Shown here one piece after another: positions 3,837-48,955 of a DNA stretch of 64,000 nucleotides. The DNA is from Glandiceps talaboti. Lineage: Eukaryota > Hemichordata > Enteropneusta > Spengelidae. The stretch lies in NCBI RefSeq assembly GCF_964340395.1, contig NC_135555.1, forward strand, positions 5,534,501-5,598,500, written 5' to 3'. The first letter of the stretch is position 1; the number at the start of each line of letters is the position of its first letter. A program made the translations under genes and the position numbers. The notes below the pieces were generated by a model. It saw only the letters and a list, made by a program, of their open reading frames with translations. It made no database searches and was not told the DNA's origin.

Positions 3837-5169
3837 CTATATAGTAAAAAAAGGAAAACAGAACAGACATGCTCAATGAAAAGAAACAGTTACTGATGAC
3901 TGATAATATTACGAAAATTATGAATTTTAGCCCCTTCACTATGAACTAAAGACTGTAACGGTTAGAGTGATAGCATAAAATTTAAATACTGTGGGTGAGG
4001 TACAGTTGAAGTAGTATAGTAGAGGATAGTATAATTGTTTATTATAGTGACATGAGGTTTACCTGAAAAGTTTACATTGACAAAAAAAAAAACAATAAAT
4101 AAATAATAACACCTCCCAGCCGAACAGTAATTGGGACTATATAGTCACTAATCATTCCACATTCATCTGAACCGAATATACTATTGGCTGCATTATATTG
4201 ACAATTACTAGGACATAAGCTGGACGGTTGCAGAGTTAGTTCACACTAACAAGTTGACTGACATTCAACACTGACATTTAACAAGTTGGATACTGTATCC
4301 ACTTCTATACATCAAATCAAAGCTACTATTTCAAACCTATGCTACTTGTGCCTTATCAATTTACAGTACTGGCACCAACTGACACATCTCAAATTGTAAC
4401 ATACTTGTACCAAATGTAAGCATTGTCCTGTCACGAGATGATCACTTTCACTACATCTTAGTGATAGTGGGGCATAATTACTACATGTAAATCAAGACCG
4501 TGATAAGGTTACTATGTCAGATAATAAGTTTTGCACTGCAATATCCTAGCCTATAGTACACTTGACCCTGTCCATGTTACATTAGATATCACATTTCAGG
4601 TTGCCCTGGATGAAGCCAACTTTGTCTAATTTTAGTGGCAATCCTTCTTGATGTTGTTATGAGGGTACCACCTCCTGGACATATAAATTACTACAAAACG
4701 ACCTAATTGCTGGAGTACAACCTAATACATCATAGCAACTACTGACCACCATGAATTCCTATCAATGACCACTTTCTGACATAAAGTTGGAGTTTTATTC
4801 AACTTTTTACACATCTGAAATCTTAGAAAAATGATTTCAAACAAATTGAATCTCGTATTTGTCTTGCATGTTGTGGTTGTGAAAGGATTTCTAATATTTT
4901 GTACACTGGTGGCTTCAACTTTTGCAGTAACTTAATTGGCTGAAAGTGACTAATTAATATTCCCATGTTGGCCCAAACACTGAATAAGCATATGATCTGC
5001 TGAAAGTGACTTTTGCTAGAATCCCAAGTTGGCCCTGACACTGAATATTCTTATAGTCCGAGTCTTATACTGAATATGCCTGTACTGATTGGCTGAAAGT
5101 CACTAGGATTAACACTACCATATCTGGCCTTGATCTTGATCAAGTCTTAAACATGTGATTGACACTAAC
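3837..5169 (-). other. PIEZO intron 9, with diverged repeats at about 4930-5125
   Basis: Three imperfect units of about 60-70 bp share (T)GGCTGAAAGTGACT, then CCAAGTTGGCCC and ACACTGAATA. The rest shows no feature. Confidence 0.6.
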
Positions 5170-46150: not shown

Positions 46151-47764
46151 CAGTCAACCTCAATCTCCATGTCTCTTTATATGATTTTGTTTTTTAAACA
46201 ATTTCTCTTTCACGGAATGCATTTTTTCGTAATTTTCTCTGGACACCTTGTTCCTCGGTCTTTATCGTAGAAATGACCACCTGTTCACGGTTGACCGGAA
46301 TCTCGCTACACACAAGTAAAACCGGTAGACAGAATATGGTGAGTCAGAGCCGGGGTGCGACGCCTCTCTCGTCACAGGTTGACATTTAATCGATGTTTTG
46401 TCACACTACGATTTGGTACATACAGTATTCACATTGAGAAGGGGAAGGGGGCTTTCCACTCACGTTTCTTTAAAATATCACATTATAAAATAATAATACA
46501 CTTGATCGTGGGTAGTAGATGGATAGGGCGGGCCTAGACCTACATTTGAATTGTCTGTTTTGTAGATGGTTAATAAAAAATATTGTTTTTACCAAATAAA
46601 TGTCAGTACAACGTTTTGATGCTTAGAAATTAAAATCGTCATCTCTACACATAACTACCTGCTTCATTTTACCATTTTTACCTTAATTCGGGTTATATTC
46701 CATCAAAGTGTTGTCAGACGTTTCTTAATTCTATTTCTATACTCTGCACGTATGTCTATGTATTTACTCTCCGTACACACCTCAAAGTGTCTGCAGAGAG
46801 TAATAAACTATTTAACAGAACTTGAATTACTGATATCGCAAGGATCTCTTCTTGCAGTTTAAAAGTCGAGAAAGGTCTATATATAGTATTGTGTTTGTCT
46901 GAAAATCTACTGATAGATATTTCTTCGGGGGGAAATTAAGCTTACATTTTATAATAGCCTTTTGAGTTGAACGATAAACACAATCAACGAATGACTTAAA
47001 CTTTCAATTCCAATTAGCCTGGGTTACCGTGACCATAAGCCTTATAATTGAAACGAAGAAAACGCCTCTTGAGTAAATATGAACTTTCAGTCATGCCACG
47101 GTCTTTGTGGGGGGAAGTCAACGATCATCTATAAAAATAATATTGATGCATAAATTACCGTTCTTATCGTCTCCATGGATACTAACTTGTCTACCATCGT
47201 TACTTTTCAAGCTTTAAGTCTCCGAGCCCGTACCGTGACTACGCCATATTCCAAGGTATATTTGCGGCAACGGGCGTTACGTTACTCGGAATAGTCTTTC
47301 GTCCGTTTTTCACTTAAGGTGAATGTCAGCAAATCCTTCGTTTTCAAATGTTTTACAAGCAAGTTAATTCCATGGTCCATCGAACGGTTTCTATGGTCTG
47401 AGATTACATCTGTAGATGCTATCACAATGAATTGAATAGGTAAGTCGAAAATCGTGGCAAGCTCGACCTCGTCAAATATTTATTTTTATAGAGCAATATG
47501 GTATCAGTTGAAATAAGTTCTAAACCAATATAAAAGCCCATAAAGTATGCATATATCGCATTCATTCTATATAGCGCCTCCTAACAGACGGAGTTCTTTC
47601 GATCGCGATCCATTATGACACTACGATGGCGTATTTCAAATACACACAACATTTAAAACTGTGCAAACAATTTTTAAAAGTGTAATTTTCTCCGATTATA
47701 CTCTATCTAGAAGTAAATTCGTGGGTGTATAAATTGGCTCGATGCGTTGTTACTCTCACTGAGT
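46151..47764. other. CpG-rich spacer upstream of PIEZO
   Basis: No ORF of family character was seen. CpG is common (for example 47220-47310 and 47590-47640), as in unmethylated invertebrate intergenic DNA. Nothing else recognised. Confidence 0.5.
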
Positions 47765-47795
47765 ACTGACGGAATGAGCTGAGATAATTAAGTAT

Positions 47796-47901
<106 letters not shown>

Positions 47902-47999
47902 AAGTCAGTGGTAAGATTTGTCCGTAGTACAGTGCTCGATACGTCTGCACGCAGAGCGGAGTATATGTTGAGGGTAGAAGAAAATCAAGTCGGGTTTTT

Positions 48000-48044
48000 C
48001 GTCTCTACAAGCCTGTTTCGTGAGTAAATCACTCGTCAGGAGAT
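48000..48044 (-). ncRNA. Type-I hammerhead ribozyme, minus strand, copy 1
   Basis: Exact mirror of the plus-strand copy across the palindrome axis, with identical core, stems and loops. Predicted cleavage is between 48006 and 48005. On this strand it would be in sense with any PIEZO transcript starting at the 51.9-kb exon. Confidence 0.85.
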
Positions 48045-48060
48045 GTTGATGTACATCAAC

Positions 48061-48105
48061 ATCTCCTGACGAGTGATTTACTCACGAAACAGGCTTGTAG
48101 AGACG
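48061..48105 (+). ncRNA. Type-I hammerhead ribozyme, plus strand, copy 1
   Basis: The core reads CTGACGA (48066-48072), stem II GTGA/TCAC with loop TTTAC, and GAA (48086-48088). Stem III is ACA/TGT with loop GGCT (48089-48098), and the cleavage-site A is at 48099. Stem I pairs TCTC (48062-48065) with GAGA (48100-48103), then an A/C mismatch and C-G. All invariant residues of the hammerhead consensus (CUGANGA...GAA, H17) are present. Self-cleavage is predicted 3' of 48099. The very short stem III is typical of animal retroelement hammerheads, which may act better as dimers. Confidence 0.85.
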
Positions 48106-48134
48106 AAAAACCCGACTTGATTTTCTTCTACCCT

Positions 48135-48207
<73 letters not shown>

Positions 48208-48331
48208 GCAAAGTAGGTTGGTTGGAACTTGAGGTGCTTAGTTGTAATATTTCTAAGCACCTCAAGTTCTTAGTTGTAATATTTCTAAGCAGTTCAAGTT
48301 ACTGACGGAATGAGCTGAGATAATTAAGTAT

Positions 48332-48429
<98 letters not shown>

Positions 48430-48527
48430 AAGTCAGTGGTAAGATTTGTCCGTAGTACAGTGCTCGATACGTCTGCACGCAGAGCGGAGTATATGTTGAG
48501 GGTAGAAGAAAATCAAGTCGGGTTTTT

Positions 48528-48572
48528 CGTCTCTACAAGCCTGTTTCGTGAGTAAATCACTCGTCAGGAGAT
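48528..48572 (-). ncRNA. Type-I hammerhead ribozyme, minus strand, copy 2
   Basis: Mirror copy in palindrome 2; predicted cleavage between 48534 and 48533. Same core and stems as the other three. Confidence 0.85.
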
Positions 48573-48588
48573 GTTGATGTACATCAAC

Positions 48589-48633
48589 ATCTCCTGACGA
48601 GTGATTTACTCACGAAACAGGCTTGTAGAGACG
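48589..48633 (+). ncRNA. Type-I hammerhead ribozyme, plus strand, copy 2
   Basis: Same 45 bases as the 48061 copy. Predicted cleavage is 3' of 48627, exactly 528 nt after the first plus-strand site. Confidence 0.85.
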
Positions 48634-48662
48634 AAAAACCCGACTTGATTTTCTTCTACCCT

Positions 48663-48751
<89 letters not shown>

Positions 48752-48752
48752 G

Positions 48753-48829
48753 CAAAGTAGGTTGGTTGGAACTTGAGGTGCTTAGTTGTAATATTTCTAA
48801 GCACCTCAAGTTCCAACCAACCTACTTTG
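48753..48829. repeat. 33-bp arm hairpin at the end of element unit 2
   Basis: Arms CAAAGTAGGTTGGTTGGAAC... (48753-48785) and the exact complement (48797-48829) flank an 11-base loop. In unit 1 (48208-48300) the right arm breaks off after CACCTCAAGTT and a second copy of the loop region follows. Confidence 0.9.
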
Positions 48830-48889
48830 ATTATTCCCGCCCTGCTTACCCAAGCATCGAGCACTCTATTCTACGAGTTTGATACTATT

Positions 48890-48955
<66 letters not shown>

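Follow-up and report, generated by a model that had tools for sequence, protein, structure and literature searches.

Penelope-like elements (PLEs) are retroelements whose integration is poorly known. In the Penelope elements of Adineta vaga and others, pseudo-long terminal repeats (pLTRs) are inverted head-to-head with a palindrome at the junction, targets are AT-rich and a tail extends one of the inverted pLTRs; for the junction palindromes, self-priming was suggested (PMC3846280, in its accessible sections). For Poseidon of Anolis carolinensis (PAc), both strands were found to be cut and extended, and two internal start sites of the reverse transcriptase (RT) bound a tail (PMC11167929). Hammerhead ribozymes occur in PLEs as minimal forms that are located in the long terminal repeats (LTRs) and usually lack helix III (PMC6155905, accessible part), and in animal retrozymes, which are short direct tandem repeats expressed as circular RNAs of ~170–400 nt (PMC7229834, accessible part). 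Here, we describe a stretch of 64,000 nucleotides from the hemichordate Glandiceps talaboti (contig NC_135555.1; hereafter the window), in which two palindromes carry a hammerhead motif on each strand. Very probably, each palindrome arose when the 5′-truncated, hammerhead-bearing end (pLTR) of a PLE was inserted twice, head-to-head, into an (AT)n repeat, with a later tandem duplication. The many near-identical copies in AT repeats provide a countable record of this integration.

Results

The host assembly (590 Mb, 47 contigs) contains 545 exact copies of the 45-nt hammerhead core of the palindrome arm (288 forward, 257 reverse). Our main sample comprised 60 loci with 81 exact cores among the core places listed (C1, C2 and part of C4; listed C5 places and some of C4 were left out), which together with the window and its four cores gives 61 loci. 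One sampling batch gave priority to seven head-to-head pairs and was completed with 13 single cores in list order, so that pairs are over-represented. Outside the main sample stood L029–L031 and L072 and, for the cut-site question, L073–L079. Arms were placed on an end reference of 524 nt, in which C3 of the hammerhead lies at 384 and the predicted cut between 417 and 418, and head-to-head arms less than 400 nt apart were counted as a pair. The window palindromes belong to what we call family A; at the same loci, families B and C have hammerheads with stems unlike those of family A.

On the reference, most arms end outward at one of two positions, N (CTCAAC, 456–461) or T (CTTCCT, 524), and most outer ends run into (AT)n; exceptions include L044, which lies in (ACAT)n, and one-sided CA-repeat flanks at L017 and L054. 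All but one of the 32 head-to-head pairs combine one arm of each kind (31 N/T, no N/N, no T/T), and in the remaining pair (L021) one arm is interrupted. The tailed arm exceeds the untailed one by 63–68 nt. Single matches, by comparison, end at N in 18, at T in 11 and elsewhere in 6 of 35 cases. If both ends were chosen independently, at least 31 mixed pairs out of 32 would be expected with P about 1e-9, a value that overstates the strength of the rule, since the two window pairs go back to one duplication, two pairs lie together at L027 and some others may share descent. L074, L075 and L079 also hold N/T pairs, with tails only partly visible. In family B, N/T pairs occur in the window and at L010, and two L026 arms 946 nt apart are also N/T. 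At the inner junctions, 14 of the 32 pairs meet at GTAC without a spacer, and the remaining 18 are all mutually different. Genome-wide, the 26-nt palindrome centre has 58 exact copies, including the two of the window.

Furthermore, the overlap of the two arms carries informative variants. Recurrent variants, 432T (L044, L054, L058) and 377G (L021, L044), are each present on both arms, and so are 334G and 374C in one pair each; L074 adds a both-arm change that is absent from the main sample. The 22 one-arm variants each occur once among all arms, and some are adjacent and probably represent single events. Recurrent variants on both arms and unique one-arm variants fit an origin of the two arms from one source RNA, the one-arm changes having arisen later.

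Longer copies of the core continue into a PLE open reading frame (ORF) with an RT fold and a GIY-YIG-like endonuclease fold. In line with a PLE, the RT is telomerase-like, the GIY-YIG endonuclease is C-terminal, the target is AT-rich and the pLTR is inverted with an optional one-sided tail, as seen in the N and T ends. For the L072 ORF, neither Pfam and NCBIfam nor sequence searches of the PDB gave a usable match, and a genome search with RVT_1 was uninformative, with 150 of 4932 candidates scored and all RT kinds mixed. The open frame around one PLE C-terminal match (G000:C26:12998201-12998356) has a reported length of 2717 aa and greatly exceeds a PLE ORF.

A strict hammerhead descriptor (CTGANGA, stem II, GAA, stem III, H17 and a stem I of at least 4 pairs) matched the window five times, at 48066–48099(+), 48006–48039(−), 48594–48627(+), 48534–48567(−) and 3893–3927(+); across 30 first-order Markov shuffles of this sequence, the mean was 0.0 matches. 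The match at 3893–3927 has weak AT-rich stems unlike those of the PLE families and is probably due to chance. The palindrome hammerheads show the type I features of a conserved core (CTGANGA/GAA/H17) and three stems, with a stem III of 3 pairs. An earlier note on this DNA, made from the sequence alone, had claimed two perfect palindromes with four type I hammerhead cores, one per strand of each palindrome, a cleavage site after 48099 and a 91-bp hairpin that would hide the ribozyme, and had pointed to PLEs. The palindromes and the cores were confirmed, and the hammerhead reading and the link to PLEs are supported: the 91-nt arms are 100% complementary with 0 nt spacer, the descriptor recovers the four sites, the predicted cut falls between 48099 and 48100, and genome copies of the core lead into the PLE ORF. 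The hairpin holds as a prediction, with −165.5 kcal/mol for the full palindrome. Both palindromes are identical over 182 aligned nt (100%) and sit in a tandem duplication with an offset of 528, exact over 47807–48204 (Table 1).

Rfam 15, which the note had proposed as a check, reported no hammerhead in the window at the gathering threshold, nor up to E 10 within 47900–48800 or, for the whole window, up to E 5. Since Rfam at E up to 1 also overlooks the related family B and C hammerheads in L026, L047, L036 and L014, its silence on minimal forms says little. Rfam matches in the AT arrays (pestivirus 3′UTR, mir-297, mir-1277, LhrA and others) were all under gathering scores and were rejected as noise. 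Between the family A and B hammerheads, 7 of 11 stem pairs are changed on both sides and 4 are unchanged, all 11 are Watson–Crick and the core is kept; in family C, a T–T mismatch closes stem II. When a covariance model is trained on the B and C hammerheads alone, the four window sites are its best matches in the 64 kb (12.1 bits; next 10.5), but with an E of 0.83. For one arm, the ribozyme fold has a predicted energy of −3.8 kcal/mol versus −12.9 kcal/mol for the best other fold, tertiary contacts not counted. The PLE hammerhead of Anolis cleaved only together with its protein (PMC11167929), so a weak predicted fold alone does not exclude activity. As part of the whole best explanation, the family A hammerhead is very probably the PLE's own ribozyme.

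The 5′ ends of the copies cluster just ahead of the hammerhead. Among 100 family A matches of at least 40 nt in 62 loci (the 61 and L072), 69 begin at 365–375, 40 of these at 369. In family C, which was under no selection on its own core, 9 of 24 matches begin at 70–80, just ahead of C3 at 81, and 3 of 8 family B matches begin just ahead of their hammerhead. CAG stands at the putative start in all three families and presumably resembles an initiator (Inr) motif. Transcription would hence start just upstream of the hammerhead.

We also looked for 5′ ends at the cut site itself. In a genome pattern search, no place has such an end directly behind six A/T bases. GAGACG… with a base other than A ahead of it occurs at 8 places, all of which were inspected: three (L073, L077, L078) are A17 point mutants with the remaining core intact, and at five (L010, L074, L075, L076, L079) an arm begins at the cut site within 1–2 nt, with the L010 arm joined to the ORF interior. 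For comparison, 8 of the 100 family A matches begin between 385 and 455, at 7 of 71 positions. An intact core lies nearby in only two of the five cut-site starts (L010, L079); as only these two resemble the core-selected sample, an excess of 5′ ends at 418 is not proven, and the five starts are suggestive at most as a footprint of RNA cleavage.

Beside the palindromes, the second family (B) has its own N/T head-to-head pair at 48749–48892. Some further arrangements were seen elsewhere. The pair at L044 (3851–4094), in (ACAT)n and not (AT)n, is a diverged family A pair. At L039 (793–1042), head-to-head family C arms are both tailed, with AT and other sequence between them, which may break the one-tail rule or else represent two separate insertions. 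L037 and L038, ~13 kb apart, share the same unusual junction of family A with a family C tail fragment, suggesting segmental duplication. The stretch from N to T keeps a GAGCACT block in families A, B and C; GCTC/GAGC pairing is possible in A and C, where the stretch is perhaps a protein-bound stem-loop.

Table 1. Features of the palindrome region, in window positions
Feature	Position	Strand	Basis or remark
Palindrome 1, two 91-bp arms without spacer	47962..48143		arm comparison; arms 47962-48052/48053-48143
Palindrome 2, same sequence as palindrome 1	48490..48671		arm comparison; arms 48490-48580/48581-48671
Hammerhead motif, palindrome 1	48062..48103	+	descriptor; C3 at 48066, A17 at 48099
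Hammerhead motif, palindrome 1, opposite strand	48002..48043	-	descriptor
Hammerhead motif, palindrome 2	48590..48631	+	descriptor
Hammerhead motif, palindrome 2, opposite strand	48530..48571	-	descriptor
PLE family A tailed (T) arm, pair 1	47899..48054	-	match to end reference, 369-524
PLE family A no-tail (N) arm, pair 1	48051..48143	+	match to end reference, 369-461
PLE family A T arm, pair 2	48427..48582	-	match to end reference
PLE family A N arm, pair 2	48579..48671	+	match to end reference
GTAC centre, arm overlap (gap -4), pair 1	48051..48054		pair 2 centre 48579-48582
(AT)n array left of pair 1	47799..47899		
Further (AT)n arrays	48139-48204, 48335-48427, 48667-48748, 48893-48955		
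Tandem duplication holding both palindromes	47764..48813		47764-48269 repeated at 48300-48813, AT length differs
PLE family B N arm	48749..48791	-	lone duplicate of N arm at 48205-48247
PLE family B T arm	48799..48892	+	head-to-head N/T pair with 48749-48791

Discussion

The arms look like short PLE ends in an AT repeat; rather than representing a new kind of element, the mirror arrangement hence most likely arose by insertion. By analogy with the published Anolis PLE, the endonuclease would cut both strands of the AT repeat. The two DNA ends would then prime at two sites of one PLE RNA, N just upstream and T just downstream of the ~65-nt tail; both ends are seen in the copies, and a single common RNA would account for them. 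Both cDNAs would extend across the hammerhead and stop at roughly the same RNA 5′ end slightly upstream of it, where the observed 5′ ends cluster and transcription would begin. Their 3′ ends in the self-complementary GTAC could anneal and be filled in, which would give a spacer-less palindrome. The head-to-head pairing of hammerheads would then have no special function, and a transcript of the whole unit would mostly form a hairpin. Hammerheads on both strands are thus explained without an antisense function.

We may go one step further and speculate that PLE integration is an obligately asymmetric two-strand reaction, in which one RNA is copied twice and the RTs are forced onto different start sites. 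The palindromes would then be its direct record, and the cut-site inserts at five places would stem from cleaved RNA. We propose this stronger version tentatively, as a serious possibility that we stop short of favouring.

Several observations weigh against the double insertion or limit its support. Besides the incomplete independence of the 31 of 32 pairs noted above, family C contributes just one T/N pair (L040) and the possible T/T pair of L039. The arm overlap is below 30 nt in L009, L013, L024 and L043, where the variant test is nearly blind. Spacer-less pairs could in part descend from a master palindrome, and target-site duplications are unreadable in (AT)n. Selection by exact core biases the 5′ ends, as at least one arm per locus was forced to start before 384. 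As to the protein, Foldseek taken by itself gives weak evidence for the endonuclease (best E 0.22), and the VIA Z scores of telomerase, diversity-generating retroelement (DGR) and group II RTs lie within 1 of each other. Finally, a complete pLTR–ORF–pLTR tandem was not seen in the loci examined.

Of the other explanations, the self-priming suggested for the rotifer junctions in the accessible part of PMC3846280 is the first to consider. One cDNA, or an antisense RNA copy, would fold back or switch strand at its end and so produce the second arm. We think this unlikely here, because simple fold-back priming requires a loop that the palindrome centre lacks, and because it gives no reason for a tail on one arm only; were the second outer end set by AT microhomology, one would expect many N/N pairs, but none is present among the 32. 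More doubtful still is a palindromic unit that is itself a non-autonomous mobile element (foldback or retrozyme-like) and is copied whole, with one master having made most spacer-less copies. The shared GTAC centre of 14 of the 32 pairs, 13 of these with the same asymmetric N/T outer ends, and the 58 exact centres genome-wide agree with a master. However, the 18 pairs with other inner junctions are also all N/T. The pairs at L044, L054 and L058 each carry 432T in both arms although their inner junctions all differ, and every one-arm variant in the sample is confined to a single arm. According to a third reading, the units are a dedicated ribozyme architecture whose two hammerheads, one on each strand, would allow transcripts in either direction to cleave themselves. 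The intact core on both strands agrees with this, but the reading was rejected as scarcely credible: 6 of 32 pairs have an arm that breaks off within or beyond the core (inner ends 392, 407, 429, 440, 444, 453), 32 of 35 single matches likewise cover the core, albeit in a sample selected by it, and the unit is predicted to fold as a hairpin with 91-bp arms. The undescribed spacer-less mirror element put forward in the earlier note found no support: only 14 of 32 pairs are spacer-less at GTAC and 18 are joined otherwise, and inverted pLTRs with junction palindromes and a tail on one side are already published (PMC3846280, accessible part).

Through the pairing of a tailed with an untailed arm, and through the shared variants, the model in which one RNA is copied from both DNA strands becomes directly testable. 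The counted asymmetry is the part worth testing; the observation is real and well explained. Among the matches listed by literature searches, which left most subscription journals uncovered, we saw no report of hammerheads within palindromes of this kind or of a strict one-tail rule.

In comparison with known systems, the G. talaboti element resembles Penelope of Adineta vaga in its ORF with RT and endonuclease, its inverted head-to-head pLTRs with a junction palindrome, its optional one-sided tail and its AT-rich targets. In contrast to what the accessible part of that report (PMC3846280) describes, the palindrome here is often the sole remnant of the element, lies within (AT)n and exists in many copies; the word hammerhead has 0 occurrences in the report's main text. 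With PAc, our element shares the hammerhead at the pLTR–ORF boundary, the presumed cutting and extension of both strands, the two internal RT start sites bounding the tail and the AT-rich targets (PMC11167929). PAc start sites show no strand difference and no target homology, whereas here the N site is followed by ATATA, which matches (AT)n, and the arms of one pair use different start sites. Like the minimal PLE hammerheads, those of the window are placed in PLE LTRs, but they have a stem III of 3 pairs, unlike the forms usually without helix III in the accessible part of PMC6155905. The type I hammerhead and the dispersed non-coding copies recall animal retrozymes as described in the accessible part of PMC7229834, whereas most copies here stand alone or head-to-head, and their end is also that of a coding PLE. 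As for direct repeats, a retrozyme trait, we found partial ones at L021 and L023, one +/+ neighbour pair among the C4 places listed and the direct duplication of the window. Inverted pLTRs, one-sided tails, junction palindromes, two start sites and PLE hammerheads are thus already published; the counted one-tail rule and the shared-template signal are what this work adds.
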